Source: Candidatus Paceibacterota bacterium
GTDB taxonomy: Bacteria > Actinomycetota > Actinomycetes > Nanopelagicales > Nanopelagicaceae
Assembly (NCBI GenBank): GCA_035530615.1
Contig: DATKUL010000002.1
Coordinates: forward strand, 496,001-560,000
Length of the DNA: 64,000 nucleotides
Reading direction: 5' to 3'
The notes below the pieces were generated by a model that was not told the DNA's origin, did not search any database, and was given only the letters and a program-made list of their open reading frames with translations. Position 1 is the stretch's first letter; the number at the start of each line of letters is the position of its first letter. Positions 7,824-61,876 of this stretch are shown piece after piece. The position numbers and the translations under genes were made by a program.

Positions 7824-7862
7824 ATCATCGGTCGACGCTTACTTAGATCCCCTGCCTATGCC

Positions 7863-8702: not shown

Positions 8703-8712
8703 AGGGAACTTC

Positions 8713-11586
8713 TCATGCGAAATCAGAGATCGGTGGGCAGGCGCAGATGAGATTGCGATCTCCATAGGCTCCATCAATACGCCCGACTGTTGGCCAGTAT
8801 TTGCCTCGCCGGCCGATGATCTCACCGAGGGCCAACCCTTGCGGGAATGCCGCCAATTCACGCGTATACGGGTGGTTCCAGTCCGTGGAAGTCATCTTCT
8901 CGGCCGTGTGTGGAGCACTTCGAAGAGGTGAATTCTCACTGGTGTAGGTGCCATCACCGACGGCTTGGATCTCTCTGTAAATCGAGATCATCGCTTCGAT
9001 AAAGCGGTCCAATTCGACAATATCTTCACTCTCGGTCGGCTCGACCATCAATGTTCCCGAAACCGGGAAGCTCATGGTGGGCGCATGAAAACCGTAATCC
9101 ATAAGTCGCTTGGCCACATCATCGACGCTCACGCCGGTTTCTTTGGTGATTTCGCGCAGATCTAGGATGCATTCATGGGCGACCAATCCCGCCTCCCCAC
9201 TGTACAGAACGGGGTAGTACTCCCCTAGTTTGCGGGCAATGTAATTGGCAGAGAGAATCGCAACTTGAGTGGCATGCGTAAGACCTGATCCACCCATCAA
9301 GCGGATGTATGCCCACGAGATAGGAAGAATGCTGGCCGAGCCAAATGGCGCCGCACTGACCGGACCCGGACCCGTTGCGGGGCCGGCTTGTGGATCCAAC
9401 GGGTGGTTGGGCAAAAAAGGTGCCAAGTGCGCGCGGCAGATAACTGGGCCTACACCAGGTCCCCCGCCACCGTGGGGAATACAGAAAGTCTTATGGAGAT
9501 TGAGGTGTGAGACATCGGCCCCGAATTTTCCTGGTTGGGCAAGACCGACAAGTGCGTTGAGGTTTGCACCATCGACGTAGACCTGTCCCCCCGCATCGTG
9601 CACGAGCGAACATATTTCGCCAATTGCAGTTTCGAAAACACCATGCGTTGAAGGATAGGTAATCATCAATGCAGCCAGAACTGAGGAGTGCTCTTTGATC
9701 TTTGCACGCAAATCATCAAGGCTCACATTGCCGTGTTCGTCACACGCGACTACAACTACTTTCATTCCAGCCATGACGGCGCTGGCCGCATTGGTGCCGT
9801 GTGCGCTCGAAGGAATAAGGCAGATGCGACGATGATTCTCGTTCTTTGAATCGTGGTAATTACGAATTGCCAACAAACCGGAGAATTCGCCTTGGCTGCC
9901 AGCGTTTGGCTGGAGTGAGACAGCATCATAACCCGTGATCGAAATCAACCACTGGGAAAGTTGGTCAATGAGCTTTCGCGAACCAACACTCTGATTCGCC
10001 GGGGCGAAAGGGTGCAAGGAGGAAAACTCCGGCCAGGTGATTGATTCCATCTCTGTGACCGCGTTGAGTTTCATTGTGCAAGACCCAAGTGGAATCATTG
10101 TTCGATCAAGTGCCAGGTCACGGTCCGCCAGCGTCCGCAGATATCGCATCATCGCAGTCTCAGAATGATTGGCGTGAAAGATTGGATGGGTCAAAAATGC
10201 AGAGGTGCGGATCAAGTTCGCAGGAATTGAGCCTTGGGAAGCGCTCTGCCCTGCCGGGATAGTCACCCCAAAAACTTCCGCGAGATCCCGCAGAGTATTC
10301 TCTGACGTTGCCTCATCGAGTGAAATTCCGATGGTTTCTTCGTCTATTTCACGCAGGTTGATCGAAAAATCTCGCGCCCGATTATGAATGACTTGCGCAT
10401 CTGGAACCGTAATGGTGAGGGTGTCGAAGTAACTACCTTCGGCAACTTTGAACCCACCATCCGCAATTCCTTTTGCTAGACGTCGGGTCTGGCTGTTTAT
10501 CTTGGATGCAATCATCTTCAACCCATCTGGGCCGTGCCACATGGAGTAGAAGGCGCTCATTACTGCGAGCAGAACTTGTGCGGTGCAAATATTGCTGGTT
10601 GCCTTGTCACGACGGATGTGTTGTTCGCGGGTTTGCAACGCGAGTCTGAAAGCAGGATTACCGTCAGTATCTATGCTCTGTCCGACAAGTCGTCCTGGCA
10701 TGGTTCGTTCGAGTCCGGTGCGTACCGACATGAAGCCTGCATGTGGCCCGCCAAATCCCATGGGTACTCCGAAGCGTTGCGCCGAACCAACACAAACATC
10801 AGCGCCCCACTCCCCCGGAGGGGTAAGCAAAGTCAGCGCAAGCGGATCAGCTGCGGCAATGAGGAGCGCGCCACGTTCATGAACTTGCGTGGCTAATGTC
10901 GCGAAGTCGTGAATGACACCAAAAGTATTTGGATATTGAACGAGTAACCCAAAGAAATCACCTTTCGTCAAAGGGGCAAGCGGATCAATCAATTCCACTT
11001 TGATACCCAATGGTTTGGCACGCGTGTGGATGACGGCAAGAGTTTGGGGGTGGGCATTCTTATCTACTAGGAAAACGGCGTCATCGTTGCCCTTGAAGGC
11101 GCGATGGGCGAGAGTCATTGCCTCCGCTGCGGCAGTTGCTTCATCCAACATGGATGCGTTGGCAACTTGGAGAGCAGTCAGGTCGCAGATCATAGTTTGG
11201 AACGCGAAGAGCGCTTCCAGACGTCCTTGCGAAATTTCTGGCTGATATGGCGTGTATGCGGTGTACCACGCCGGATTCTCGAGAACATTTCTAAGAATTA
11301 CGGCGGGCATGATGGTTCCGTAATATCCCGTGCCGATCAAAGACGTAAAAACTTTGTTCTCGGCTGCCAGAGAGCGCAGCTCTTCAATCACTTCAGTTTC
11401 CGTTGCTGGTGGCGGGAGGATCTCTTCTAGCCTCTGACCCATCGCAATACTCGAAGGCAAGACCTGGGCGATGAACTTCTCCATCGTCGCGAATCCGAGT
11501 TCGGCGAGCATTAACTTCTCTTGCTCCGAAGATGGGCCTATATGTCTTCTTTCAAATGCTTCATATGACACAGTCATATCTTTCAT
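8713..11586 (-). CDS. gcvP: Glycine dehydrogenase (decarboxylating), P protein
   Basis: A 957-residue single-chain P protein, the usual length for the homodimeric type. It begins [21 protein letters not shown], as in the family. The PLP-lysine motif [17 protein letters not shown] is present with the lysine near residue 699. The enzyme decarboxylates glycine and passes the aminomethyl group to lipoyl-GcvH, encoded about 3 kb upstream on the same strand. Two ATGs three codons apart could start it. gcvT is not adjacent; the GcvT-domain protein at 34.5 kb is a different, larger enzyme. Confidence 0.97.
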
Positions 11587-42281: not shown

Positions 42282-43634
42282 CTAGAGCCCGAACCGGTGC
42301 GTATTGTTGTAGATATTCACCACAAACTTGTCGCTGGCGGCTACGACTCGGTTTGCTTTCACGAGGACGGCGCGGATCCAGTGAGCGCCCGTGTAATTGG
42401 TGTCCTCCCAATTCTCACGCGGATTCGCCGAGTCGCGGCCGTTGAGTTTCTTAGCCTTGAAGAAAGCTCCTCGAAGTCCGTTCCGTTCGCGGGCATGTCG
42501 TCCAGTATTGGCTACTTGCCACCATACTTCTACGTCATCCGGACCACGAGTCAGCGCCTCAAACTTGATCTTCCGACCGTGGAAAAGTGTGCCGCCGTTG
42601 TTTTCATACTTACTGAAGTGCGGGCTGCGTTTGCCCCGTGCAGTTGAAGCAACGAGATGCACGCCATAACGCTCGTCCAGATTCTCTGTCCACCCCCGCG
42701 TCGTGTATGTATGAGCATGGCTATCATCCGACACTCGAATTCCCAGCGCCTCAGTGGGGACGGTTGGAAAGTCCTCGCCCAGAATCTCTCGCCAGCAATC
42801 TGCCGCTTCGACCGGATCCGCCGTTGCGATGGCACGCTCAGACACATCGCGGCCCTCAGCTAGTTCTGCAACGAAATCTCGGAAACTCGCGTTGCTCCAT
42901 CGAGCAGCCAGATTTTCGCTAGGAAGCACCGGATTGGGAATAACGGGCGCAGAACTAAGCGACGCTAGAGCGTCATGCATTGCTGCGAACGTTCCGTGTA
43001 GCCGCGCCGCATCATCAGTGTGAGTTGTCATGTATTGAGACGCGAGCACTTGAAGAACTATTGACTTGATCGAGTGGTGAACTGACTGTTGGTCGTCTCG
43101 CCATCGTTTGAGTGCCTTGACCGTCCGCTCGAAGTGGATTCCCTGAGCAGTGCACCACTCCGTGTATTCGGCCGGGGCCGTGGAATGCCAGCCCTCTCCC
43201 CTGCGAGGCGCTTCAAGCGGTGACGCTCCAGATACGGCGCGCCTCAGCGGCACAACATCTACATGAAACTTCCCGACTTCGTCTTCGGCGTACTCCAGCC
43301 TGACACAGGGTTTCTTGGACACGACCCGTGCGGCGTAACGACCGTCAGCTTTGAAACTCGCCTCTAGGCGATCCAAAGCAGCATCGGAAGATTCCTCAAC
43401 GTCGGACATAGCGAACACGAGGTCGACGTCATACTCACCACCATCGAGTGGACGAATGGCGGTTCCGTTGGGATACGAGCCTTGGAGAAACACATCCGCA
43501 TTACCAATGCTGAACTCTTTCACGAGGAACTCCATCAGCGTAGAAGATGCTCTTTCTATGCGATCAATTGCTAACGCTGGGAGCGATACCTGGCCAATGT
43601 ATTGCTGGAAATGTTCGGACAAATCAACCGTCAT
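42282..43634 (-). CDS. CBASS-type CD-NTase (SMODS) with AGS-C sensor domain
   Basis: A 450-residue oligonucleotide cyclase of the SMODS family. The nucleotidyltransferase core has QGSYPNGT (Gly52-Ser53), the metal site D69-V-D71, and a third acid at D126 in FHVDVVPL. The C-terminal 120 residues, with GAHWIRAVLVKANRVV and KFVVNIYN, match the AGS-C domain (adenylyl/guanylyl and SMODS C-terminal sensor). Such enzymes make cyclic nucleotide signals upon phage infection to activate an effector. The ATG at 43634 overlaps the effector's stop by four bases. Confidence 0.87.
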   Translation of the reverse strand: MTVDLSEHFQQYIGQVSLPALAIDRIERASSTLMEFLVKEFSIGNADVFLQGSYPNGTAIRPLDGGEYDVDLVFAMSDVEESSDAALDRLEASFKADGRYAARVVSKKPCVRLEYAEDEVGKFHVDVVPLRRAVSGASPLEAPRRGEGWHSTAPAEYTEWCTAQGIHFERTVKALKRWRDDQQSVHHSIKSIVLQVLASQYMTTHTDDAARLHGTFAAMHDALASLSSAPVIPNPVLPSENLAARWSNASFRDFVAELAEGRDVSERAIATADPVEAADCWREILGEDFPTVPTEALGIRVSDDSHAHTYTTRGWTENLDERYGVHLVASTARGKRSPHFSKYENNGGTLFHGRKIKFEALTRGPDDVEVWWQVANTGRHARERNGLRGAFFKAKKLNGRDSANPRENWEDTNYTGAHWIRAVLVKANRVVAASDKFVVNIYNNTHRFGL

Positions 43635-44164
43635 GAGCGATTCTTCCGATTGCGATGCGCTAGTCCGATCTTTCGCCAGGGCCATGGTGACAAGTGCGCA
43701 CGCACATCACGCAGAAACAACTCAATGTCTTCAGCGATGTTCACCTGATCCATTAACTCCGGCACCAATGAGTCGACCAATGGATCCGCCCAAGCCCGAT
43801 CAATCGGTCCCCTTGTTGCTTCCTTGGCGGCAGCAATCAAGCGGGTAAAACTCCGTTCGACTAACTTAGACTCACTTCCAATTCGTCCCTGGTGGTAAGC
43901 CAAATCTTCCTGAAGCGTGTGGAATCGATCAGTTAGTTCCACGCCATGATCAACACCGCGTCGTCGCAATCGATGAGGCATCTCCGTCCAGGCAACGACA
44001 GTTCGTAGAGCGTCGCCGTAGGTGCTGCGTCGACGATTCTGCGACCCACCCATTTGGGTAGTGAATGCACCGATCAGCACTGCAGCGATAGTGGTTGTGG
44101 CGGCAATCCCGGCCGCCCACATCGAAGTCTCCGTTGCGTCCACTCGAACCCTCCCAGTTCTCAC
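43631..44164 (-). CDS. Predicted membrane effector of the CBASS-like operon
   Basis: A 177-residue protein with one N-terminal membrane helix (about 14-38) and a helical cytosolic part rich in Arg and acidic residues. It shows no known nucleotide-binding or nuclease motif. Translational coupling to the CD-NTase (ATGA) strongly implies partnership. The natural guess is a membrane-disrupting effector in the style of TM-CBASS systems, but a single helix is uncommon for that group, so its action is open. Confidence 0.65.
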   Translation of the reverse strand: MRTGRVRVDATETSMWAAGIAATTTIAAVLIGAFTTQMGGSQNRRRSTYGDALRTVVAWTEMPHRLRRRGVDHGVELTDRFHTLQEDLAYHQGRIGSESKLVERSFTRLIAAAKEATRGPIDRAWADPLVDSLVPELMDQVNIAEDIELFLRDVRAHLSPWPWRKIGLAHRNRKNRS

Positions 44165-44685: not shown

Positions 44686-45756
44686 TTAAGAAATACTAAA
44701 ATGGATCTTTAATTTAGCAACAGTTGACCGCCATCGCGATGTAGTTGGCCTACAAACAGAATTTTGATTACCAAAAAATCCCAGTTCGTCATAGGCATCC
44801 TTAATATCGACAGTCTTGATCCAGTCGACTTTTACAAAGAACTCCTGGTTCTCTTCACTCATATCCTTGCTGTAGTTTGCGCCCTTAACAACATCGAGCA
44901 CGTTGAACGATTTGTCAGACACTACAAGATTGAAATCAGAAGTGGATTGTGCCTTTGCCGCAACTATTCCGACTCCAACATAGCCCAATTTAGGTATACG
45001 AACCCATATTCGGTCACCAGGTGACAGCATATTTAGAGTCCTGCTATACCAAGCGCCACCTCCCGCGCAGATAAAACCATATTTTCGTGCGTCTTCCCAG
45101 GAGCGGGTTTCGCCTTCGCCCCAAGAGACATAAAACTCACCATTCCACGGTTCTTTATCGTTGTCGGCACCAGAGGTATTTATCTGAGTGATAGCAGGAT
45201 CAACAAACCAGCGCCTTATCAAAAATTGATCATTTTCGCTGCTGAATACTTCAAAGAAAAGGGCATTTATCGCAAGATTTCGTTCACTCAAGTAACTGAT
45301 GATCCGCTCAGTGCTTGAATCGAGCTCTGCTGCAATTACAACAATTTGATGGCTTTGATTCAAATTCTCTTCGAGTAAAACAGAGCGAAATCTATCTTTG
45401 AACGCGTCCGCAAGGTTCTCCCCTTTTTTATAGGTCGAAAATATTCTAGAAATCTCATCTGCTTCTAAAGTTTGCACCCAAGATGCATAATCGATGGCTT
45501 GCGCCACAACATCTCTAGGTGTTCTGTTGCGCTTCAATTCAATGATTACTAACGACCCATCAGGTGCAATTGCTAGAAGGTCAATTACGCCACCTTGGGC
45601 TGTACGAACCTGACGCCCAATAATTAGCCATTCCTCAGCCAAAATCGACGGGTCCGCTTCAATCATGTCTTCCAGAATCTTTTCATCCTCCAGCGAACTC
45701 TGAGTCAGGGCAATTGGCCTTTTTCCGACTTTCCAAATAGCGTGTTGAATTGGCAC
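44686..45756 (-). CDS. NucS-like PD-(D/E)XK nuclease with C-terminal EVE/PUA-like domain
   Basis: A 356-residue protein. Residues 55-85 hold GGVIDLLAIAPDG then LVIIELKRNRTPRDVVAQAIDYA, the D-x(n)-ExK core of the NucS/EndoMS (DUF91) nuclease domain. Residues ~205-270 (EFYVSWGEGETRSWEDARKYG, LSPGDRIWVRIPKLGYVGVG) resemble an EVE or YTH-like domain that could read modified bases. The combination suggests restriction of modified or foreign DNA. It is monocistronic and flanked by repeats. Confidence 0.75.
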   Translation of the reverse strand: MPIQHAIWKVGKRPIALTQSSLEDEKILEDMIEADPSILAEEWLIIGRQVRTAQGGVIDLLAIAPDGSLVIIELKRNRTPRDVVAQAIDYASWVQTLEADEISRIFSTYKKGENLADAFKDRFRSVLLEENLNQSHQIVVIAAELDSSTERIISYLSERNLAINALFFEVFSSENDQFLIRRWFVDPAITQINTSGADNDKEPWNGEFYVSWGEGETRSWEDARKYGFICAGGGAWYSRTLNMLSPGDRIWVRIPKLGYVGVGIVAAKAQSTSDFNLVVSDKSFNVLDVVKGANYSKDMSEENQEFFVKVDWIKTVDIKDAYDELGFFGNQNSVCRPTTSRWRSTVAKLKIHFSIS

Positions 45757-45919: not shown

Positions 45920-47659
45920 TCAAATTCGGAAAAGTTTGTCGGTCTGAGACAGTTTTACTGCAATGTATTCTTCATTATTCAATTCTGGGGGCAACTTATC
46001 TTTCAGAATTGAGGCTACAAATTGAATGTCATTTTTAATTGCAAAATCTGCGATCTTGACTAGTTGATGATCATCCATTAATTCCTTTTTATCGTTCAAT
46101 AAAAAGTCAAGACACGAAATTTCTTCACCCCTCGCGAAAAGAATATAAGCAAGGTCAAAACAGGAAATCTCTCCTTGCTTCTTTCCAGAACTCATGTTTC
46201 GGTTTAACGCACTAAACTTGTAGACTTTATGGCCGGTCTTCTTGTTTATCTCAACCTTATATGTGACGCCATAATCCTCATCGTAAAGCTCCCTTGAAAC
46301 CGAAGAAAAGTATTCATTAAACTTCATCAGTTGCAGGCTGATCGTCTTTTTAGCCTCATCCGAGAAAAGTAAATCATCAATTTGGGAAAGTTGTTCTTCA
46401 TATTCCTTCAGGTTTCTTTCGACGTCATCCAGTTGCTTGATCAAGACTTCGTATTCGCCTTTCTTGGTATAGGCGCTGTTGAGTGCGCCAATCAAAGATT
46501 CAAGTTCGGAAAACGAGTCGGACTTGGCGATTAGTCCAACAAGTTCAGATTCACTGGCTAGGAGACGACTCAGTTCAAGACTCAATGAGCGAAGTTCTTC
46601 ATCCAATTCTGGTAGATCTTTGGTTAAAAACGCGACCTTTTCATCAATCATCGAATTGTGAAACGTCACGAGATCATCAAAAGATTTTTGGATACCGCTA
46701 ACTTGCTTCGTGGCTTGCCGATAAAGGTTGGATAGATGATCGAGACTTCCAAGAAATTTCCCAGAACTCACCTCATCTCGTGCCTCTTCTAGCAATTGTC
46801 TTCTAATTGATAACGTTGAAATATTGGCACTCGTTCGACTTATCGTATGCCGAACCTGATTCAGGTGAGCAAGATCTGCTTCAAAGTTCACGTTTACGTT
46901 AAGAAGAGACTTAGCTTTCTGAAGTTCCTCAATTCGTGATTCTAAGATCGCCAAATGCATTTGAAAGTCGGTCTTATTCTGTCGTTGTCCTAGGCGAGTT
47001 TCGAAAGTCCTCTCAACCTTTATTCGTTCCAAAATGCTCTGCCGAGACTTTCCGTCATTGAAGTTACAGTTAAAAAGAAATAGATGTAATGTTTCATACT
47101 CCGTGTCTTTGGCAAATTTATCCAAAGTTCTAAGGGTGCGATTTACGCTTTCGTCCTTATATCGAATGCTGTGGGAAATGATCTGTCTGAAGGTCGGTTT
47201 CTCTGATGTGTGTTCGGGAATCAACAGTTCCATTAAACGCAGTTCTAGTTCATCATCTGTCAGCGGCTCTTGATTAACTTTCTGTATCTTCTTTTTGTAG
47301 GTTAGGAAATTCTTCTCGACAGATACCTCAGGAGAATCAGTTACGTCCAGGTCTTCCTTAAGGATTAGAGTGATGAGGACTTCATTATTGACAAGGAATT
47401 CCTTTACCAATTCATAAACTTCTTTAGGGTTTTCTGGGTCTGCATAAATACTTTTTGCAGACCCACCGAGGCAGAAATCAATGAGCGCCAACACGGTTGT
47501 CTTCCCAACATTGTTACCGGTTGTCTTGTCGTCATCGTCATACCCAGGAGTTTCATCGACGATCAAATTTAGGCCTTTAGAGAACTGTATGTGACGAATG
47601 ATCTCGGTCCTACTCGAGATAGTGAGTGACTTAAGAAACAATTGATATTCTCCCGTCAA
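45920..47659 (-). CDS. ABC-3C system ATPase (DUF2326-like, SMC/RecF-type)
   Basis: A 579-residue ABC ATPase. The P-loop is GNNVGKTTVLALIDFCLGG near residue 50, two coiled-coil arms span roughly 215-430, and the C-terminus (SSGKKQGEISCFDLAYILFA, CLDFLLNDKKELMDDHQ) has the signature and Walker B of DUF2326 proteins. It is the motor of an ABC three-component conflict system with the two upstream genes, overlapping the middle component by 29 bases. Confidence 0.85.
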   Translation of the reverse strand: MTGEYQLFLKSLTISSRTEIIRHIQFSKGLNLIVDETPGYDDDDKTTGNNVGKTTVLALIDFCLGGSAKSIYADPENPKEVYELVKEFLVNNEVLITLILKEDLDVTDSPEVSVEKNFLTYKKKIQKVNQEPLTDDELELRLMELLIPEHTSEKPTFRQIISHSIRYKDESVNRTLRTLDKFAKDTEYETLHLFLFNCNFNDGKSRQSILERIKVERTFETRLGQRQNKTDFQMHLAILESRIEELQKAKSLLNVNVNFEADLAHLNQVRHTISRTSANISTLSIRRQLLEEARDEVSSGKFLGSLDHLSNLYRQATKQVSGIQKSFDDLVTFHNSMIDEKVAFLTKDLPELDEELRSLSLELSRLLASESELVGLIAKSDSFSELESLIGALNSAYTKKGEYEVLIKQLDDVERNLKEYEEQLSQIDDLLFSDEAKKTISLQLMKFNEYFSSVSRELYDEDYGVTYKVEINKKTGHKVYKFSALNRNMSSGKKQGEISCFDLAYILFARGEEISCLDFLLNDKKELMDDHQLVKIADFAIKNDIQFVASILKDKLPPELNNEEYIAVKLSQTDKLFRI

Positions 47660-47858
47660 TCTCCATTTTCACTACATCCAAAAGAAAGAGCCAATCGAGT
47701 GCCAGCACGAAGGCTGGAAAAGTCAGTCCTTGCGACGTCCTCATTTCAATGTAGAGGTCGGAAATATTCTGGCTGGGTAAGCGATACATTTCCTCAAGGA
47801 CAAGTGAACCAATGTAATAAATCGAATTCTCGGGTCGAAGGTTATCTGGAAGCAACAT
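47631..47858 (-). CDS. ABC-3C middle component
   Basis: A 75-residue protein with the features of ABC-3C middle components: an N-terminal LLPDNLRPENSIYYIGSLVL and a winged-helix-like end with FVLALDWLFLLDVVKME. It is thought to connect the ATPase with the effector. It lies three bases after the SMEK gene and overlaps the ATPase gene. Confidence 0.82.
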   Translation of the reverse strand: MLLPDNLRPENSIYYIGSLVLEEMYRLPSQNISDLYIEMRTSQGLTFPAFVLALDWLFLLDVVKMEIDGRISIVS

Positions 47859-47861
47859 GTG

Positions 47862-48839
47862 TTATTTCACCGGTGGCTTAAAGATCTTGCATCTAATGAA
47901 AGCGTCCACAATCACAATACTGACACATTGATGAAGTTCTTCCAGAGAAATTTCCTTGAAATTGGGGCTGTGTCGGACTATGAGCTTAATGTTTTCAATT
48001 ATCAACTCAAAGAGCTCGTCCCCTTGATGAGTTACGCTGTTTCTCGCGTATTCAGATCTAACGGATGCGATGATGGAATTACTCTTATTCACTGCCATCT
48101 TGTCAAACTCGGAATAGATTCTATCCAGTCGACTGCCGTGAATCTTATAATCCTCTATTGCATACTGGGAAGTCACGAGTTTGTTTTCGTTGATCTTTTT
48201 CTCAATTTTAAAGGGATCAACGGTGAGTGGCGCGTTGATTTCCTCGTGGGAAGATTCGGCAAGAATATTCACTACATGAGTGAGATTTGAGTCGAGGTCT
48301 TTAATTTTGACTGAGTGACCCAATTCTTTTTGAATTAATTCCTCAATTTGGACAAGTCTATCTATGCTTAGTGGTCGAATTTCGCGGAGTAGAGCTGCGA
48401 GATCATAAATATCGACTTTGGGGTCGAATTGAATGTTGTGCGGGTTTTTATATTCTTTCCCACGCAACCATGAAGCATCATCGACAAGTGCTACGAACTT
48501 AAAAGCATGGTCGGCTCTAGCTTTAATTGACTGTTTGGAGAGGGCGGATTCCACCTTATCCTTGGTTGCAGTTGCGGAGACTTGAACGAGTATCTTTGTG
48601 GGAGGCTTTGAGACAAGGTCAAAGCCTGAGATATTTTGGCTCTTAAGATTCGCATCTTCCAAATTCCAGCCGAATAACATGTTGAGGAAATGTAAGTAGA
48701 AGACTTCGCAACTGTTATTTAGGGTTAGTACATTCAATTTGCCGCTGGCTTTTACGGCAACAACCAGCGTACTGAGGCGCTCTGTAATGTGTATGAATGG
48801 AGCTACTCTATTAATGGCCATCATCCGAGAGGATAACAT
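47862..48839 (-). CDS. SMEK-domain protein, third ABC-3C component
   Basis: A 325-residue protein with an N-terminal SMEK domain: LNNSCEVFYLHFLNMLFGWN, then SGFDL and ILVQVSATATKDKVESAL. This fold is a restriction-endonuclease-like domain found in ABC-3C systems. The C-terminal third (about 210-320) fits the partner-specific ABC-3C region. It is the likely effector. Start may be ATG 48839, 48824 or 48821. Confidence 0.82.
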   Translation of the reverse strand: MLSSRMMAINRVAPFIHITERLSTLVVAVKASGKLNVLTLNNSCEVFYLHFLNMLFGWNLEDANLKSQNISGFDLVSKPPTKILVQVSATATKDKVESALSKQSIKARADHAFKFVALVDDASWLRGKEYKNPHNIQFDPKVDIYDLAALLREIRPLSIDRLVQIEELIQKELGHSVKIKDLDSNLTHVVNILAESSHEEINAPLTVDPFKIEKKINENKLVTSQYAIEDYKIHGSRLDRIYSEFDKMAVNKSNSIIASVRSEYARNSVTHQGDELFELIIENIKLIVRHSPNFKEISLEELHQCVSIVIVDAFIRCKIFKPPVK

Positions 48840-49860: not shown

Positions 49861-52800
49861 CTATTCGTTTTCGAATGACGACTGATTGAACTTCAGCGAA
49901 CGAGCATTCTCCAGAATCACACGAATTTTATCTGCAGGGAAACCTTCGGAAACTTCCGCGTGAATCTCAATTGTGATCTCAAGACTGATCCCATCAATAG
50001 AACTAATGTGTTGCAAAATTTCTTGACTTAATCTATTCAAGTCTCGACTGTAACGCTCCGGATCAACTTTATAAACGCCAAAGAATCTAGTACTCAACTT
50101 TGGTGAAACCGGCGTTGGTGCTCCACCTGTGACAACTGGTGGCTTGCCAACAACTTCTGGAGTTTCTGACGTTTGAACGTCTGGCTTTACCGTTACCTGA
50201 TTTCGGGCTATCTCTGGTTTAACAATCAATGTCGCATCGGTAATAGCGCCAAAAAATACATTGGCCCCTGGCCGGGTTAGTCCCAAATAATTCCCTGTTG
50301 CACTTTCAAATCCCTCTGCCAGCGCGAACCCCTCGTCATCAAACATAATCATGGTGAGAACTTCAGAAATTGCATCAGCTAACACTTTGCGATTCTTCAT
50401 TCTCGTTAAATAAGGATATGAACAGTAGAAAGCCCACAATTGACCAACATTCAAATGACCAGATTCCCATGCCTTGCTCAGTTTGGAATCTAGGTCCATG
50501 CGAATCATTCGAGGGGACGCGATATCAGTAAATAAGCCGGCTCGAACCAACTTTTCAGAAGTGCGCGCCGCTAAAGAGGTTTCTTGACCTTCTGCCTTTT
50601 CTACCGTCCATTCAATTGGCCTACTTGGATCTGGTTGCTCCGGCACAATCGCCCAGATATACGTTTGCGCGATTCGAGAAGTAACCCCTTCATGGGCTTG
50701 GTCTCGACGGGTTGTGGCTTGCTTTGCCTGTTGCGGAGAAAGGTTCATTTCCTCAATTCTGCTTGCAATATTTTGCCAAGCCAGCAGATCTCTCACAGCT
50801 TCCATCAATTCTTCAAGTCGCTTTGTATCAGGTGCCAGGTATACCATCATATTCTTGTTAATCCTCTGCGCAGAGCCGCGCTTCTCCAACGATTCTTGTG
50901 CAAACTTCATTGCTAGCGAATCCTGGGCATTCTTTGAGTGAGAATGTGAAGGATGGAGAATGACCAGACGCGCCGAGTCCTCATCTGGGATGTCTGCCGA
51001 AGTATCAGGTGCAATATGTACTCCTGAGAAAGCACCACGATTGCGATTTTCATTTGTTCGCAATCTAGAAACAATTTCCAGCCAGACCTCTTCAGGCTTG
51101 TCGCGAAGACGGTCTGCATAGTCGGCTGCCGTTCTAGTCACTGACGCCTGTGTGTCAAACCAATATCGATGCCCATCCGCATAGAGGTAGGTTGCTCGCT
51201 GGGAAAGTAGATCCAGCGCAGACCCAAAATTCCCAATAGTGTCACCAGGAATCGCAACACCCAACCAGATACGTGGTTTCTCAGCCCCTACATGGCTGCT
51301 TTTAAGAGTCGGCGCGGCACCAACAAAAATCGTACGAGCTAATCTGCGAGTTATCGCACGCTGTCCAAATAACGGTCTCTCTGAATCGATTTGCGCAGGA
51401 GTCGATCTCGGACCATCTATATCAGCATCAATGATGGGCTTCCAAGAGTCTGGCAAATACTGACTGATTTGAGTTAAAACATTTGGATCATCAAGGGGCA
51501 ATGATCCTGGCATTATGAGTGGGCCGGCATCCTGCAACTCCCATAGAGTATGAACAACTGCACTCATGAGTTGCAAAACTCCTCGGGTTCGTTGGAAGCG
51601 ATCTAAGGTTGACCAATCTTCGTAGAGGCGATCAAATAACTCTGGATGGATTGGATAGGCCGCACGGATTCTTGCCTCGTACGAAATGTCCGAACATTCT
51701 CTTGGGAATTCACCTACGTGTTGCGAGTAAAAGTTCACGAATTGACGCGCCACAGCAGAAATGTCTGACAAAGCAGCAGCATCTGGTTCAACAAACAGTC
51801 GTCTCCTTACAATTTCAAATGACTCTTGAGCGCTCGCGGGTCTCCATTGATCTGCAACTCGACGAACTACATTCTGCAATCTCTGTAGAGCTTCTTGACC
51901 ATTTGGGCCGCCAACTTCCAGCGCACTACCACCCGACTGACCATCTTTATCCGGATCATGGGACGCTGGAATAGAAATGACAAGCATTGCACCAGGAACC
52001 GTCTTAACCACCTCTGTTAAGGATTGTGCAAATGTAAATTGAGTATCGAACGTTCCTCCAGGAAGATCTTCACGCTCCCAAAGCTGACGAGCATAAGCAA
52101 CCCACTCATCAATCAGAATCAAGCATGGTGAATAGGCGGTAATTAACTTTCTCAACCCTTCGCCGGGATTTGTGCGACTTGAATCAGCTTCTGCGACAAA
52201 ATCAAACGCTTTTTTGCCACCTAACTGCCAGGCAAGCTCTCCCCAAATTGTGTTTACCTTTATTCCATCAGGCTTAACTAATGGTGCTCCAGGAGACAAA
52301 TGAATTCCAACTAACGCTACACGGTTGACTTTCTTTGGTAGTGGACGATTTGCAACAACATCTTGCACCTCTTGAGTCAGCGACGAAGTTGGTGCCCCTC
52401 CGAATAAATGCCATAACGCAAGCATTGAGTGGGTCTTACCACCACCGAAGTTAGTCTGAAGGTTAATAATTGGCGATGCATTTTCATCACCAGATATCCG
52501 CCGGATGCCTCTATCTAAGAGTTCTCTTAGTCCTTCGGTTAGATAGGTGCGCCTGAAGAATTCAATCGGCTCTACATATTCACTTGATCCCTCATTCTGT
52601 GAAACCATGTATAGGTCAGCAGCAAACTCGCTCGCGGAATAGTTTCCGGTTGCTACATCCTCATGTGGGCGAAGTACTTCACGCCATGATTTCAGCCCAG
52701 TGCCTGCAACGCTTATTCCGTTACCAGGATTCAAAATTGCCTTCTTGGTCTCTGATTCAAATACTAACCGTTGATGATCCTGGCGCATCTGCCTAATTGT

Positions 52801-53190
52801 CTCCGCTTCCGTGGGGGCACCTGCTGCGGTTAACAATCTTTCCATTGTGTCGAGAATTCGATAAGTGTCATCATTATCAAATTTTTTACTATGTGCCCAG
52901 CTATTTCTGACTTCGCGTAGCTCTGAAGCTAAAGATTGTTGAGCACGGCTCAAGACCTTGCCAAACACACGCCATTCTTCCGTGATTACTTTTAACTGTA
53001 CTGCAGGATCTTCCTTCTCGTAAATCTTCTTAACGCCATTTTTCGTTTCGTCACGCTTCTCAATCACTTCAATCCAATCAATTCCAACGCCTTCTGAGGC
53101 TGATGTCATTTGTCGATCTACAAAGTCTACAAGCCCAGCGGAAAGTACATCGAAGCCTCTACTTACACGATCACGATTACTTATTGCCAT
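49861..53190 (-). CDS. DUF499 ATPase with N-terminal Swt1-like HEPN domain
   Basis: A 1109-residue protein. Residues 1-125 are a Swt1-type HEPN domain containing VRNSWAHSKKFDNDDTYR (Arg-x4-His, a possible RNase site). The central ATPase has LQTNFGGGKTHSMLALW as Walker A near residue 250 and LILIDEWVAYARQLW as Walker B. A C-terminal part of about 150 residues includes a linker rich in Pro, Thr and Val. DUF499 ATPases occur with DUF1156 methyltransferases in defence islands. TAATG overlap couples it to that gene. Confidence 0.87.
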   Translation of the reverse strand: MAISNRDRVSRGFDVLSAGLVDFVDRQMTSASEGVGIDWIEVIEKRDETKNGVKKIYEKEDPAVQLKVITEEWRVFGKVLSRAQQSLASELREVRNSWAHSKKFDNDDTYRILDTMERLLTAAGAPTEAETIRQMRQDHQRLVFESETKKAILNPGNGISVAGTGLKSWREVLRPHEDVATGNYSASEFAADLYMVSQNEGSSEYVEPIEFFRRTYLTEGLRELLDRGIRRISGDENASPIINLQTNFGGGKTHSMLALWHLFGGAPTSSLTQEVQDVVANRPLPKKVNRVALVGIHLSPGAPLVKPDGIKVNTIWGELAWQLGGKKAFDFVAEADSSRTNPGEGLRKLITAYSPCLILIDEWVAYARQLWEREDLPGGTFDTQFTFAQSLTEVVKTVPGAMLVISIPASHDPDKDGQSGGSALEVGGPNGQEALQRLQNVVRRVADQWRPASAQESFEIVRRRLFVEPDAAALSDISAVARQFVNFYSQHVGEFPRECSDISYEARIRAAYPIHPELFDRLYEDWSTLDRFQRTRGVLQLMSAVVHTLWELQDAGPLIMPGSLPLDDPNVLTQISQYLPDSWKPIIDADIDGPRSTPAQIDSERPLFGQRAITRRLARTIFVGAAPTLKSSHVGAEKPRIWLGVAIPGDTIGNFGSALDLLSQRATYLYADGHRYWFDTQASVTRTAADYADRLRDKPEEVWLEIVSRLRTNENRNRGAFSGVHIAPDTSADIPDEDSARLVILHPSHSHSKNAQDSLAMKFAQESLEKRGSAQRINKNMMVYLAPDTKRLEELMEAVRDLLAWQNIASRIEEMNLSPQQAKQATTRRDQAHEGVTSRIAQTYIWAIVPEQPDPSRPIEWTVEKAEGQETSLAARTSEKLVRAGLFTDIASPRMIRMDLDSKLSKAWESGHLNVGQLWAFYCSYPYLTRMKNRKVLADAISEVLTMIMFDDEGFALAEGFESATGNYLGLTRPGANVFFGAITDATLIVKPEIARNQVTVKPDVQTSETPEVVGKPPVVTGGAPTPVSPKLSTRFFGVYKVDPERYSRDLNRLSQEILQHISSIDGISLEITIEIHAEVSEGFPADKIRVILENARSLKFNQSSFENE

Positions 53191-55955
53191 TAGCTATCCC
53201 ATTCATTATCTGAGTTTGTACTAAAATCAAAAGTATTCTGCTGCGAAGTAACCTTCGGTGTTTTCAAAATGCTGGTTGAAAGATCCGACCATGAAGAGCC
53301 GAGAGAATTGAACAGCATTGCAGTATCAACCCATCCCTTCTTCTCAGAAATGCTAAAGATTAGATAAGTCAATTCCTTTACGGACTCCATGTCCACTCGT
53401 GAATTTGAATCCCTGCTCAATTCGGCCGCTTTATCTGCTCCCTCGGACTGCAGTGCATAAGCTATACGGACGGCAACTTCCCAAATGGATATAGATTTAT
53501 CGATGTCAGGATTCCATTTCTTTGACATTTCTTCGGGACGTAATAGTCGTGCTTTTCCTGCTGCTGCCCTAAAGATTCCCCCTCGTTCTAGAGTGGTAAT
53601 CGAAGTATTTATTGCGCGCGATAAATCAATTGCAACGCTAGACGCGGATTCATTCCAACCAAATTGTTCAAACCACTTGATGCAAAAACGGGTTTCTGAG
53701 TCAAAATCACCCTCCTGATCGCTGAGTACCTCAGCCAAAACTTGGTTAATAATTGCCAGTGCAACACGGACGGACATGTCGGCACCATCTGCCTCAATTA
53801 TTTTCGAATACTTGGAAAATATTGCCATGCCAGGACCAATTGCTGCTTGCGCCAAATCAACCGGTGCTACATTCGAATCTTGTAAATTTTTGAGGGCTAT
53901 GGGCAATCTTTCCTTTAACTCATTTACAAAAGCTCGACGCATTATCGAAGAAGCAGCTGTAGACCTTACTCGGCAAGCAAGGACGATTGATGAAGCAAGG
54001 GCATTTGAGTCATTGTCTCTAGGTCGGCCGGTCCTTTCTGTGCGGACTGGCCACGTGGCTGTAATTTGCCAACCGCTCTTTATCATACCTTCTAGCAATG
54101 CTTCCCAGCCAGTCGAAGCGGTGCCGATACTGTCTGTTTGTTGTTGCTTAAAAGCATAGAACACCGTTATCGGAATATCCTTGCGAACTTGGCCGTGCAT
54201 ACTTTGAAAAACCGATTTAAATCCTTCTTCGAAGAATGAGTTAGCAGCATCCGCGTTTGCATGTCTTGCAGGGTCTGCTATTAGTTCTTCACTTTTAGGA
54301 GTCAAAACAGTATTAAATTCGGGCCATAGATTTGTCGGCAAACTTTTTCTTAGCCAGATATAAAAAAAATCTGACAAATCAGCGTAACCCACATTGTCGT
54401 AATACGGCGGATCTGTTGATACAACATAATTTTGATAGTTACGAGATGAAGCATCAGCTTGCTCTGCATGTCCGTGCATGGCTGGTAAACGTTCCACAAC
54501 ACGAGCTACCCACTCGGAACTTGAACTTAAGCTTGCCGGACCATCGCGGAAAGGATTCGATTCCGCAAAGTCCCAGACCATACTCAGGCTTTGCATTTTG
54601 AAAACATTATTGACTGTTTCCATGCTTGGCGCTGGGTTCCAAGTGTTCAAATTACTGAGTGAACCTGCGGTGCGGCTAACAGCAAGCGAAAGATAAGTAA
54701 TTACGATGTCGGCATACTCTTCAGCACGCGTCTTATTTAAACCCATTTTGATAGCGTCTTTATTTATTGCTTTCTTTGAAGCAACAACATTCTTAGAATA
54801 TGTTAAAAGTGTCATTGTTTGCCTTGGTGTAAACAAATCAGCGTGCTTAGTTAGGCCGTAGGCAAATACTCGAAAACCCAAAGCGTCTTTAGGTATTGGT
54901 GTGTCAAGAAAATCTTCCGGGATAGTAATTTTCTCGGGCACCAAAACTTCAAAACTAGATTTGTACACACGCTGTCTTTCACCTTCAACAACAAGCGCCA
55001 TTGGTGTAATCCCCAGTTTTCCTTTAACGCCAGCTTCCCTTATATGTGTTAGTGGGATTGCAGTGCCACATTTGATACAGCGTCCACCAGTTCTACTTAC
55101 TGTAGGTTTTTCCTGTGGACCGGCTGCACCTGTTGTTACCTGGAATTCAATACTATTATCTTTGATTACAGGTTCTAACCAAGATCGTCTCTGTGGTTTT
55201 TGACTCAACCAAAAATTTCTAATCAACGGAGCAGAAATTCCGCATGAGGGATTTGGACAAATTACGGTTCTAGCCCATAACCATGCCACGACTGGATTGG
55301 TTCCGTCATTCTTTTCACCAACCTCAGGATAATATTTTCGCAATTCTTCTAGACTGGATTGCCAAATATCTTTTGCGTAGCGTTTTATGTCTTCGGCTAG
55401 ACCTGTCGCACGTGGCCAACTTGAAGATTCAATTGCAGAAGCTTCTGGATGAACTGGTGGGCTTCCATGAAATCGATTCGGTAGGTCAAGGAGACATCTG
55501 TTAATCATGACGGGAATCGGATTTAGGTCAGAACCAGTGGAATTTAGCCCCAACCTCTGAGCTTCTAGCGGAATAGAGCCTCCGCCAGCAAAAGGATCTA
55601 AGAAATTAATGTCCTCCAGTGTGCCCACAGAATCTTCAATTGCTTCTCTCATTTCATTCAATAAGCTCACATCATCGCAGTCTTCCCAAACGACTGATCT
55701 ATTTATCAATTCAAATAGGCGATTTCTTTCTAGACTTTGACTTAATTCCGTAGGAAATTTGTCGGGATTTGATGAAGGATCATCTACTAATTGTGCAAAA
55801 AGCACAGCTCGACAGGCGGCTAGAGGACGCCTTGCCCACCACATATGAAGAGTTGATGGATGCCCATGACGAATTCATTTCTCTCTGGCCGATTCGCGGT
55901 TGATCGCTTCCAATGGAAGCGCAACTTCAATAAGTTTTTTTCTGTATTCACTCAC
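53190..55955 (-). CDS. DUF1156 DNA adenine methyltransferase, interrupted by an in-frame TGA
   Basis: Translated from GTG 55955, the protein opens YRKKLIEVALPLEAIN and continues to SAREK, then a TGA at 55875-55877, then IRHGHPSTLHMWWARRPLAA. The family consensus has Ser at the TGA (TCA to TGA is one change). Downstream, the SAM motif NFLDPFAGGGSIPLEAQRLG and catalytic STDPPYYDNVGY are intact over 884 residues from ATG 55844. Either the gene is a pseudogene, the stop is read through, or translation restarts at 55844. GTGA overlaps the helicase stop. Confidence 0.85.
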
Positions 55956-58900
55956 CTAGGTACGCCGCCAATCTTCCACTTAGGGTTCCAATCTATAACA
56001 AAGCGTGTAACGCTAAACTCTTCCGTACCCACTAAATCAAAAGGTCGTTCTAGATATCTAATTTCATCAAAAGCTGGCCCTTTTTGGCTGACTCGGACCA
56101 TAGCTAGCCGATAATTGTCTTCAAGATTCTTTGCCGTTAATACTTCACGACGAGTGACTTGAAAATCGCTAGCACCTTCAATTCTCCCCTTTACTTCAAT
56201 CTTTATTACTGTGCCATCGGGTGCCACGGATCTAATATCAAAGCCGGGATTATTGTGTGGCATTTCTTCTGGAGTTCTTCCAATTGAACGTTCTGCTGCC
56301 ATGGCAGCTGCGACCGCACGACGATCCACTTCTGCTGTTTCTTTGGCATAGCTAGATACGGGGCCAGTTCTTTCACCATTAAGTCGATCGACAAATCCTT
56401 GCGGAAGTACCATCGCGATTCCAACAAGCGCAGGTGGATGAGTAACAATCTTTGAATCAGAATCCAGTTCAGCTAGGCGAATTTCTAGGCGTCTCTCTAG
56501 ATCGCGTGCGCGACGTTGAGCGGTTTCTGGCTTAATTTTTAGCGCTTTACCAGCAGCTTCTTGATCAATTAATTCAGCGTGGCGCGTATCCCAATAGTTA
56601 ATTTCACTAATTAAACGCTTGCGAACTTGTTCTCTAGACCTTTGTGTGGCTGGAATTACCTGTGCGGTAATTTCTTTTTGATGTTCCAGTAGAGAATTTT
56701 CAATGGCCCAATTCACGGCCAACGTTTCCATATTCTTTAAATCCCATGACGTAACTTGTGAAGAGCGGGCCTTCTTATAGACATCTTCCGAGGCTGGTGA
56801 ATAATCAAGATATGGGGCTTGACCCACTCCAAATACTTCCCCCGCAGACGTTAGTTCTACGAAATCAAATCTCTTAGAGATAGTTCTTGGCGGTGTATTT
56901 CCATCACTAATGCTCTGTGTCATTGCGACAAGAAGTCTTGGAGTTTCACCTTGATCTTCAGCATCAATCAATACTGCGCCGTGTTTAAGAGTTGATGAAT
57001 TTTGTTCAATCGATAGATCAACAACCGCATCCAAAAGTGGGTGTCCTGGCGCAACTAGGTCTGCCTTAGCATTACCAGTGACGTTTACGAGCTTTCTCTC
57101 AAAAGTTATACGTTCGTACTTACTCAGAACCGGAGCGCCAGTTCCTATTTGTCTGTCTCTATCTCGGACAGCACTTGGAACATGGGTTATTTCCCATTTA
57201 CCTGCTTCGCGAGCTGCAGCGCGACCACCTAATCTGCTAAACGCACTCAAGAAGAAGGATTGAATGTAGTGGGGCTGGAGTCGCCGTGCCTGTAAATCTT
57301 CAATGCGACGCTTGATCTCATCAATATCGCTAAGAGCCAGAATCTTTGTGTGTAATGCCCGTTCGGCAATTAGGACATCGAGGCCCTCACCGACTCTGGA
57401 GTCAATTACTTCATTGAGGCGTTCTCTAGTCGAAGGTTTGTCCCCATATCTGATTGCCTCTATAAGAAGTTTACGAAGTGGCTCTTCTGCAAAAGCCTCA
57501 CCTAAAACATCAAAAACCTTACCTTTATAAGCAATCCGCTGTTCTTCTATTTTTTGTAGTAGACGCTGGAACACTTCGCCCTCCCGAGTGTTCGCAGCGA
57601 CGAGATTCCACAGATGGCAAACTTCCTTTTGACCAATACGGTGAATACGGCCAAATCTTTGCTCAATTCGGTTTGGGTTCCAAGGAAGGTCATAATTCAC
57701 CATCAAATGAGCACGCTGAAGGTTGAGGCCTTCACCCGCTGCATCTGTCGCAACCAATACACGTACGTCTTTATCTTGAGTAAAGAGATTCTGAACTTTT
57801 CTACGATCTTCGCGGCCAACTCCACCATGAATTGCGACAACCGCTTCATCACGGCCAATTAGCGTCCTTATTTGTTCTATTAAGTAAACCATGGTGTCTT
57901 TGTGCTCAGTAAAGATGATGATCTTTCTTAAGTTGCCGCTCTCATCCTTGGTTAAGGAGTTATCGCTCAGAATGGTCCGAAGTTCTGTCCACTTTTTATC
58001 AGTTCCCGAAAAGCGCACACGTCGAGCAAGTTCAGCCAGGTTTTCAAGAAGCTTGATTTCAGTCTCAAGTTCAGCCACAGTTTGAGCAGCCGTAGCTGCG
58101 TCGACAACATTCTCTTCTATATCTTCAATCTCGGATTCTGGAATATCATCAATATCCTCTAAATCATCGTCTGAAATATCGCGATCTAAAAGCGCTCGCA
58201 GATGCTTCTCAAGTGAGGAGTCTCGCACGGATGCATTCGCAATTTGGGTCATTTCAATGCGTCGAGCTTCTAAACGATCCCGACGCCTTTGCAAGCTTTT
58301 CCAAATTGCCTCAGGACTTGACGCTAAGCGCCTTTGGAGAACAGTCAGAGCGAAGCCAACAGTATTTCCACGCCTGCCGTCCCCTGCGGCCTTGAGTCTG
58401 TCTGCACGATTCATTTCATCTCGCACATACTCAGATACCGCTTCATAAAGCGCTTGTTCTTGGTCCGAGAGTGCGTAAGGCACCGTGTATGCCCGGCGTT
58501 CAGGGAAAAGAGGTGTTCCTTCCATTGTGAGAAGCTCTTCTTTGACCATGCGACGCATCAAGTCGTCAATCTCAATGCTGTGAACACCATCTCGGTATTT
58601 ACCCTCGAAGCGGTCACCATCCAGAAGTGCGAGGAAAAGTTGGAAATTTTCTTGGTTTCCGGCATGCGGTGTTGCGGTCATCAGTAATAAGTGACGACAT
58701 ATTTTGCCAAGCATGAGGCCAAGTTGATAACGCTTGGTTGTTTTTAACTCTTGTCCAAAGTAATGAGCGGACATGCGGTGTGCTTCATCAACAACAATTA
58801 GGTCCCAATCACTTCGCTCTAAGCGTGCTTGAAGTACTTCATCGCGGGAGAGCATGTCCATACGAGCAATCATGAGAGGATGGTCGGTAAAGACATCTCC

Positions 58901-59509
58901 ATGAATATCTGAATCGATCATCGAGCGCGTGAGGATTTCAAACTTTAGGCCGAATTTTTCGAAAAGTTCATCCTGCCATTGTTCTGCTAACCCTCCCGGT
59001 GAGACGACCATGCAACGAGCTAGGTCGCCTCGAAGAATGAGTTCTTTGATGTAAAGGCCAGCCATAATTGTCTTTCCAGCGCCGGGATCATCGGCAAGCA
59101 AGAAGCGCAAAGGGGTCCTTGCTAGGAGTTCTCCATAGACGGCCGTTATCTGGTGAGGAAGGGCGTCAAGATCTGAAGTTGTAATTGCAAGCATTGGGTC
59201 AAAGAGAGCGGCGTAGTGAATACGCAAAGCTTCTGCCCCGATACGCCAAGATTCTGGATCGCCGTCAAACGCTGGTCCATTTCCCGTGGAAGCGACCCTT
59301 AGAGATCCCTCTTTATCTCTTCCCACCACGATTTGCCCGGTATCACCGTGGTCATCCTTGTAGGTAAGGGTTATGAAATTAACTCCATGCCATTCCACCT
59401 GAACAACCGAGACGGGTGTTGCACCGACGAGGCCGCTAACCTCAATCCCAGGAACGAGGTCCTCAAGGCGGATAGTTGAGGTATCCCCAACTGGGGTCTG
59501 ATCAGCCAC
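55952..59509 (-). CDS. SNF2-family helicase with C-terminal DUF3883 domain
   Basis: An 1185-residue DNA translocase. Walker A is LADDPGAGKTIMAGLYIKEL near residue 142, the DEAH box is in VVDEAHRMSA, and motif VI is in RFGRIHRIGQK. The last ~110 residues (NNPGFDIRSVAPDGTVIKIE then VKGR) are a DUF3883 domain, a nuclease-like fold found in DISARM-type and restriction helicases. It is the first gene of the operon with the methyltransferase and DUF499 ATPase. Confidence 0.9.
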   Translation of the reverse strand: MADQTPVGDTSTIRLEDLVPGIEVSGLVGATPVSVVQVEWHGVNFITLTYKDDHGDTGQIVVGRDKEGSLRVASTGNGPAFDGDPESWRIGAEALRIHYAALFDPMLAITTSDLDALPHQITAVYGELLARTPLRFLLADDPGAGKTIMAGLYIKELILRGDLARCMVVSPGGLAEQWQDELFEKFGLKFEILTRSMIDSDIHGDVFTDHPLMIARMDMLSRDEVLQARLERSDWDLIVVDEAHRMSAHYFGQELKTTKRYQLGLMLGKICRHLLLMTATPHAGNQENFQLFLALLDGDRFEGKYRDGVHSIEIDDLMRRMVKEELLTMEGTPLFPERRAYTVPYALSDQEQALYEAVSEYVRDEMNRADRLKAAGDGRRGNTVGFALTVLQRRLASSPEAIWKSLQRRRDRLEARRIEMTQIANASVRDSSLEKHLRALLDRDISDDDLEDIDDIPESEIEDIEENVVDAATAAQTVAELETEIKLLENLAELARRVRFSGTDKKWTELRTILSDNSLTKDESGNLRKIIIFTEHKDTMVYLIEQIRTLIGRDEAVVAIHGGVGREDRRKVQNLFTQDKDVRVLVATDAAGEGLNLQRAHLMVNYDLPWNPNRIEQRFGRIHRIGQKEVCHLWNLVAANTREGEVFQRLLQKIEEQRIAYKGKVFDVLGEAFAEEPLRKLLIEAIRYGDKPSTRERLNEVIDSRVGEGLDVLIAERALHTKILALSDIDEIKRRIEDLQARRLQPHYIQSFFLSAFSRLGGRAAAREAGKWEITHVPSAVRDRDRQIGTGAPVLSKYERITFERKLVNVTGNAKADLVAPGHPLLDAVVDLSIEQNSSTLKHGAVLIDAEDQGETPRLLVAMTQSISDGNTPPRTISKRFDFVELTSAGEVFGVGQAPYLDYSPASEDVYKKARSSQVTSWDLKNMETLAVNWAIENSLLEHQKEITAQVIPATQRSREQVRKRLISEINYWDTRHAELIDQEAAGKALKIKPETAQRRARDLERRLEIRLAELDSDSKIVTHPPALVGIAMVLPQGFVDRLNGERTGPVSSYAKETAEVDRRAVAAAMAAERSIGRTPEEMPHNNPGFDIRSVAPDGTVIKIEVKGRIEGASDFQVTRREVLTAKNLEDNYRLAMVRVSQKGPAFDEIRYLERPFDLVGTEEFSVTRFVIDWNPKWKIGGVPR

Positions 59510-59932: not shown

Positions 59933-60769
59933 TTATCTGACTTCTCGCTCATGGTTCCTTCTTTGAAGAGCAAACTTGATGATGTTGAAGTACATATGGA
60001 ACAGAAAGTCAAGCAAGTCCCTGTCGTCGGTTATTTCCGTTTTCCCGACTTCATGATGTCGAATTGTGGATGTATTCGAAATAGCTGTTGCTATTCCCAG
60101 AATCGCATTCAATGGTTCAGAAAGATCAAATTCTCCTTCCATCAAATCTAATAAATCAGAAATAGCTTGCTTCTTATTGCTCTGGCCTTGGTCGGATTTA
60201 ATTCGCTCATAAGCATCCGCCAGGCTTCGAACACCCTTCCACTTATCGTCAATTCTGGTAGACCGGTAGTCAAGAATCGCCATGGTTATGAGTTTCTTTA
60301 GGTGTTCATCTCCCCCGAATTTAAGATCTTCAATAAGTCGGGCATCCAAAATCGAACTACCCAATACGCGAACTCTGCCGTACTCCATTGAGTACCCCGG
60401 TGCCATTTTTCTAAACAAAATGTTGACCGCGACTGTGTAATCGTAACGGCCAGCAGTGACATCGAATTCAGTCGGATGGCTTTCGCCGCAAAATGGGTGA
60501 CTCCAAGATTTAATGGGCCTTGAAACTATTAGATAAATTCCTTCGATGTAGTCGGTCAAATCGGCCTCTGTATATTCCAACTTTAAGTCCAATGGCCATC
60601 CAGTCAATCCAGTTCGGGCCGTAAGAGCCTGATTCATCCCTTGGGGATCCCAATAGAATGGATGGCCATCGGGACAGAGTTCAGGGGCAACCTGCGTGAA
60701 GTACTGACCCTGCGCCATTTCTTCCAAGGTCGCCAAATACGCGTTCAGGAATCGAGCTTCTAGTGCCAT
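59933..60769 (-). CDS. Unknown protein, possible HEPN-like partner of the TIR-like gene
   Basis: A 278-residue soluble protein without membrane or signal segments. The C-terminal quarter is helical and has STIRHHEVGKTEI followed by DLLDFLFHMYFNIIKFALQ, which recalls the Arg-His region of abortive-infection HEPN domains; this is weak. The N-terminal half, with FDVTAGRYDYTVAVNILFRK, is unrecognised. It lies 114 bases after the TIR-like gene on the same strand, so a two-gene system is likely. Confidence 0.55.
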   Translation of the reverse strand: MALEARFLNAYLATLEEMAQGQYFTQVAPELCPDGHPFYWDPQGMNQALTARTGLTGWPLDLKLEYTEADLTDYIEGIYLIVSRPIKSWSHPFCGESHPTEFDVTAGRYDYTVAVNILFRKMAPGYSMEYGRVRVLGSSILDARLIEDLKFGGDEHLKKLITMAILDYRSTRIDDKWKGVRSLADAYERIKSDQGQSNKKQAISDLLDLMEGEFDLSEPLNAILGIATAISNTSTIRHHEVGKTEITDDRDLLDFLFHMYFNIIKFALQRRNHEREVR

Positions 60770-60883
60770 GAATCTAATGATAGAAGCGGTTGCACTAACT
60801 AGGGCTTGAATTGTTCCAGGTTGAAGACGTATTCCCAGTGCCCAGTTTCATCCCTCCGGGCGCAGACGGAAGCCTGTAGAGGG

Positions 60884-61876
60884 TTAATGCAAATCGTCTT
60901 CTTCGATGGACGTGGAAGTGACGACGTAATCCTGCCAGTTCGTGCCGACAAGGTGCTCGACATTCTCCATAAGCGAATTCATCTGCGTGACAAGCCCATC
61001 ACGACTTCTACCGCCATCCCAGTAAAACTGTATATTGGCAATTTGCTGAGCCATTTCCATCAGGGCCCGAATATCTCGACCGAGTGCAGAAGTCGGATTG
61101 TTGAGAACCACAGCCACATCGCCATTCAGTCTTGCTAGGTACTGATAGATACCCTGTGCGAGATCTTTTGCTGCATCTCCATTGAAGGGATCCCCTCTCG
61201 TTTCCCACTGAGATTTCCACATCACACTATCGCGCAATAACTGAATACGAAGCGGCTCAAGCGCAAAAAAAATAGTTTCTTGCATCTCTTGGCTGCTTGC
61301 GGTTTGCGGTTCTGCGACTACCGCATTCTCGATCTCCAGTCCTTGAACTAATCGAACTAAATCGGCTTCCACATGTCTACGTAGATCATCGATATCTGAA
61401 TAGGATCCGAGGAAGCCTTCGACTTGCATTCGCGCTCGCAATTCATTGCGCCTTTGAAGTTGTTCTGTATCTATATCCGCGATATTCACTTGTGACTCGG
61501 AGAAATAGACAATCGCAGGTCGGCCCGTCGCAATGAATCTTTCAATCTCTTCGCTGGTGCCTGAATCTGAGGAGGCGGTTGGCGTCCCCATTCTGTGGCC
61601 GAAACATGCAATAAGAACGTCGGACGGATCAACAATTTGAGAGTTGAGAATTGTTTGAGGGGGCGCACCCATCTCTGGGCGAGAGTGAGTCGTCCACCGG
61701 ATTGGAAGTAAGACTATTCCTTGCCGTTCCGCATGAAGAGAGTTCCAACGATGAATTGTGGCTTCAATTGCTTCGCACTCCCTCTCGACGTCTGACGGAG
61801 ACGCGATCAGGACCTTTATCGCGATGGCAGGAAACACGTTGCCAAGCCTGGCACGGGGACTCGAAGGAGTCATCAT
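60884..61876 (-). CDS. TIR/DUF4062-like domain protein
   Basis: A 330-residue protein. The first ~160 residues begin IKVLIASPSDVERECEAI and continue with a PIRW motif, QTILNSQIVDPSDVLIACFG, RMGTPT and SGTSEEIERFI. This is the TIR-like/DUF4062 fold found in NTPase and NAD-cleaving defence proteins. The C-terminal half is helical and unidentified. It probably senses or executes in a small abortive-infection system with the following gene. Confidence 0.75.
   Translation of the reverse strand: MMTPSSPRARLGNVFPAIAIKVLIASPSDVERECEAIEATIHRWNSLHAERQGIVLLPIRWTTHSRPEMGAPPQTILNSQIVDPSDVLIACFGHRMGTPTASSDSGTSEEIERFIATGRPAIVYFSESQVNIADIDTEQLQRRNELRARMQVEGFLGSYSDIDDLRRHVEADLVRLVQGLEIENAVVAEPQTASSQEMQETIFFALEPLRIQLLRDSVMWKSQWETRGDPFNGDAAKDLAQGIYQYLARLNGDVAVVLNNPTSALGRDIRALMEMAQQIANIQFYWDGGRSRDGLVTQMNSLMENVEHLVGTNWQDYVVTSTSIEEDDLH

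Follow-up and report, generated by a model that had tools for sequence, protein, structure and literature searches.

An Hma defence operon with a premature in-frame stop codon in its methyltransferase gene hmaB

Introduction

What becomes of a methyltransferase gene that meets an in-frame TGA near its start and is open over all the rest of its length? This question is raised by hmaB, a gene of a defence operon located in the window studied here, that is, the whole analysed stretch of 64,000 nucleotides. The gene may be newly dead, the TGA may be recoded, synthesis may restart downstream, the interruption may be one state of a switch, or the stop may be an error of the assembly. The operon belongs to a kind of phage-defence system that is already known. 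Hma was named as a candidate defence system (PMC8565338) and was later reclassified as a Type-1 DUF499-centred BREX-related (BR) system, in which HmaB is an N6-adenine methyltransferase with a helical DUF1156 N-terminus (PMC12839542). The present member differs from it by the premature stop in hmaB.

The Hma operon and its neighbourhood

As judged from its gene content and profile matches, the operon is a three-gene Hma system encoding the HmaA helicase, the HmaB DUF1156 methyltransferase and the HmaC HEPN-DUF499 ATPase (Table 1). PADLOC matches are near full-length for all three proteins. Pfam recognizes Helicase_C and NOV_C in HmaA, and HEPN_Swt1 and DUF499 in HmaC, so that both the SNF2-family helicase with a nuclease-like C-terminal domain and the DUF499 ATPase, in many cases fused to HEPN, that are expected as HmaA and HmaC of an Hma, or Type-1 BR, system are found. 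The same three genes, the fusion of HEPN to the DUF499 ATPase and the C-terminal NOV_C of the helicase are all shared with that system. The DUF1156 methyltransferase is recovered in the frame read through the TGA, and not as a single intact ORF. When the frame is read in this way, Pfam DUF1156 scores 107 bits and the motifs DPFAGGG (motif I) and TDPPYYDN are present; because of the TDPPY motif, assignment of HmaB as an amino-methyltransferase fits. HmaB differs from the Type-3 BREX methyltransferases in that DUF1156 stands in for their N-terminal element. HMM-based defence calls score the operon as a complete Hma system even though the methyltransferase is probably not made.

Table 1. Features of the operon and of the surrounding region (positions in the window).
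Feature	Position	Strand	Description
hmaA	55952..59509	-	SNF2-type helicase with C-terminal NOV_C, intact; PADLOC HmaA 1436.6 bits, E=0
hmaB	53190..55955	-	DUF1156 amino-methyltransferase; natural GTG start 55955, interrupted at codon 27; PADLOC HmaB 843.3 bits, E=5.8e-254
In-frame TGA	55875..55877	-	Codon 27, end of predicted helix 15-27; Ser in 98/112 homologs
Candidate restart ATG	55842..55844	-	Codon 38, in frame; no Shine-Dalgarno sequence; preceded by out-of-frame ATGs 55878 and 55867
hmaC	49861..53190	-	Swt1-like HEPN and DUF499 ATPase, intact; PADLOC HmaC 899.2 bits
CD-NTase-like cyclase	42282-43685		
PDC-S11	44686-45756		
DUF2326 protein and SMEK-CTD10 ABC-three-component protein	45920-48839		
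PDC-S32/PDC-S60	59933-61876		Weak matches

The region 42282-63711 of the window resembles a defence island, and G+C is lowered to 0.43-0.47 over 44-60 kb.

A stop codon in a conserved segment of HmaB

On the minus strand, the GTG start of hmaB overlaps the hmaA stop (GTGA), and the hmaB stop at 53190 is itself overlapped by the hmaC start. The TGA at codon 27 is the sole in-frame stop ahead of this natural end. Apart from it the frame of 921 codons is open, with 894 open codons past the TGA. The coordinates, the overlap and the single stop given in the initial annotation are thus correct. The genome holds one copy of hmaB; a second copy was looked for and not found. In the window, TGA is an ordinary stop, terminating 17 of the 44 long ORFs.

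The stop falls in a well conserved segment. We compared 112 distinct homologous N-termini, all 40% or more identical in the part that was matched and gathered partly with a pattern on the KLIEVALPLEAIN...REKSIRHGH segment; among them residue 27 is Ser in 98 and Thr in 3, never Cys, and none carries a stop within residues 20-45. The comparison therefore bears out the earlier claim that a conserved Ser stands where the stop is found. Most closer relatives share 82-95% identity over the first 45 residues and only about 35-60% over the cores, so the N-terminal segment is under strong constraint. In the nearest hmaB copy, from a MAG of the same genus (G009, L052/L089), the frame is open, with Thr27 and Leu38. 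As a separate observation, comparison of the window (49861-59509) with this locus (L052, G009:C60) gives about 91% identity for HmaA and HmaC and only 49% for HmaB, DNA similarity being retained at the hmaB ends. This pattern suggests that the methyltransferase core has been replaced, or is diverging fast, between the two operons.

Overall, the hmaB lesion looks like an ordinary nonsense allele or a one-base assembly error, and not like a recoded or restarted gene. The best explanation is probably that a single nonsense substitution at codon 27 has inactivated the hmaB of an Hma operon. Ribosomes reaching the gene through coupling to hmaA would begin at GTG 55955 and halt after 26 codons; essentially no HmaB methyltransferase would be made, while HmaA and HmaC would stay intact. 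The lone TGA followed by 894 open codons, the conserved N-terminus, the ordinary use of TGA, the lack of any SelA or tRNA-Sec match above cut-off in the genome and the single hmaB all argue for a null allele. On the other side, no further lesion is present in those 894 codons, a state compatible with a very recent mutation and likewise with an error or with continued translation of the gene, and an in-frame ATG lies 31 nt past the stop. Among the options first put forward for this gene, that of a newly dead one is supported, as a recent nonsense allele in an otherwise open frame. We infer that the cell itself carries the stop, that hmaB yields no useful product and that the system is inactive. 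If the stop is indeed real, this strain offers a ready-made test of whether an Hma system that lacks the methyltransferase does no harm and stays inactive.

Assembly error and downstream restart

The main rival, to which we give a small but real chance, is an assembly or consensus error: the cell would have a sense codon at 55877-55875 and an intact hmaB. One base separates TGA from a Ser codon, the remainder of the gene is fully open, and every homologous N-terminus compared has a sense codon here. However, no homopolymer at the site exceeds three and the change is a substitution. Substitutions are the less common kind of assembly error. Also against this rival, the genome is assembled in 3 contigs, with 100% completeness and 0.2% contamination.

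Alternatively, a working HmaB lacking residues 1-37 could be made from the ATG at 55844. This ATG had been pointed out in the initial annotation, and it is indeed codon 38, in frame, and heads an 884-aa ORF. Such a short form would retain motif I (DPFAGGG) and motif IV (DPPY). It would also keep the methyltransferase core, since solved methyltransferase folds align to an AlphaFold2 model of HmaB mostly from residues 26-43 on, an alignment that gives no clear information on residues 1-25. With VIA-align, the model matches a general SAM-methyltransferase core, best that of Trm14 (Z 13.4, rmsd 3.2, 168 aligned). Foldseek with the same model returned nothing under E 0.001, and sequence searches of solved structures gave only weak methyltransferase matches. 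The mean pLDDT of the model is 70.9, and values of about 47-74 over residues 1-50 are too weak to place the missing N-terminus; a product starting at codon 38 would lack the model helices 15-27 and 33-38, in this part of low confidence.

The short form is nevertheless possible but unlikely. No Shine-Dalgarno sequence is found in the 20 bases ahead of ATG 55844, and two out-of-frame ATGs lie closer to the TGA, at 55878 (an ATGA overlap with the stop) and at 55867, opening ORFs of 32 and 15 codons. The short form would lose the segment that is so strongly conserved in closer relatives and present in 112/112 N-termini, and the DUF1156 score drops from 107 to 57.5 bits. Finally, the statement that Leu is usual at position 38 holds (98/112, with Met in 2/112), whereas Met38 is not peculiar to this gene: L167 and L183, the latter from Rhodococcus opacus, read HMWWARRP with Ser27 kept and no upstream stop. 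Because Met38 occurs there alongside Ser27, it is natural variation, and the idea that ATG 55844 arose specially to compensate for the stop was rejected.

Phase variation and recoding

A related multi-gene defence system offers a further possibility. The Pgl/BREX methyltransferase gene pglX/brxX is often disrupted (PMC9122589), and in Streptomyces coelicolor pglX is switched by a G tract (PMC4365076). The stop in hmaB could by analogy be one arm of a phase-variable switch, a reversible off state. In its favour, a tract of nine G is the site of an hmaB frameshift in two unrelated genomes: L048 (G091:C7, 8134-10934), at codon ~112, and L152 (a Corynebacterium MAG, G535, 6501-9253), inside motif I at codon ~124. 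In each of these genomes (2.7 and 3.2 Mb) the hmaB tract is the only isolated G9 run, and runs of G8 or longer are few; in both, ten G would preserve the hmaB frame. These frameshifts resemble the pglX switch and may represent the same kind of phase variation; because they come from assemblies and were noticed for being frameshifted, homopolymer errors remain possible at both tracts. The lesion of the window differs from pglX, being a substitution with no tract. The genome that carries it has no G8 run anywhere, and the region contains no hmaB fragments and no invertible or long repeats involving hmaB. Neither a homopolymer tract nor recombining repeats, the marks of pglX-type variation, are thus seen in this single hmaB, and phase control of it, as first suggested, is very improbable.

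More broadly, it can be proposed, tentatively and with some doubt, that switching of Hma resides in HmaB, as that of Pgl does in PglX. The gene would be shut down again and again, and in some lineages reversibly, through G9/G10 slippage within the SAM-binding motif or beside it; the stop of the window would be one locked-off allele. Given the relatives in which hmaB alone of the three genes is broken, and the two with G-tract frameshifts, phase variation of Hma becomes testable in culturable actinobacteria.

Recoding of the TGA as Sec, Trp or Ser, also among the options raised at first, has a negligible chance. The frame is open on either side, but the best genome matches to SelA (62.3 bits, cut-off 267.9) and to tRNA-Sec (43.1, cut-off 47, the match being a tRNA-Ser) both fall short. 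What the tRNA-Sec search retrieves are ordinary tRNAs for Ser, Arg, Leu, Trp and Gly, and those for Ser and Trp carry ordinary anticodons. In relatives, residue 27 is Ser or Thr in nearly all cases. With the machinery missing and TGA in ordinary use, selenocysteine and another genetic code were rejected.

Interrupted hmaB genes in relatives

We return to the nonsense allele as the favoured reading. It is also supported by recurrent cases, among relatives, in which hmaB is broken although its neighbours hmaA and hmaC are intact. In L048, L050 and L183 the gene is frameshifted, and in L049 it is split by a transposase-bearing insertion. On plasmids it is interrupted by an IS4 family transposase (L184, Thermus oshimai) or an IS3 family transposase (L185, Microbacterium). 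The plasmid cases were chosen for looking broken. A single-protein scan of genome contigs gave no match and an alignment-based scan gave 80 loci; no viral contig gave a pattern match. An excess of hmaB lesions over hmaA lesions was looked for and not seen: among 112 loci, frame breaks affect hmaB in L048, L049, L050, L152 and L053, hmaA in L101, L131, L134, L155 and L078, and hmaC once (L163). As hmaA is broken about as often as hmaB in this set, hmaB is no general hotspot.

These relatives also weaken the early suggestion that helicase and ATPase deprived of the methyltransferase could be toxic; judging from such loci, toxicity of HmaA and HmaC without HmaB is unlikely. Type I BREX is reported to require its methyltransferase for defence and methylation alike (PMC11842806). 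By analogy with that requirement, an Hma system that loses hmaB should fall silent and not be unleashed, and that of the window is most likely silent, not toxic. The literature searched yielded no phenotype for the loss of hmaB from any Hma system.

Two minor observations concern the structure of hmaB in relatives. Two deposited sequences of the Rhodococcus opacus PD630 plasmid (L183 and L186; 5822-5850) differ by one G in hmaB, which at that site leaves the frame broken in one and intact in the other. CP003951 has besides a duplication of ~275 bp inside hmaB; these differences may be error or real variation. In L042 (4230-4334) and L043 (2819-2935), a truncated second hmaB 5' end (codons ~4-36/42) lies upstream of hmaB. 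From translations inspected by eye, a HEPN/MNT-like gene pair precedes the truncated copy and small toxin-antitoxin-like genes stand between the copies, as if a module had inserted at the hmaB start, duplicating its 5' end.
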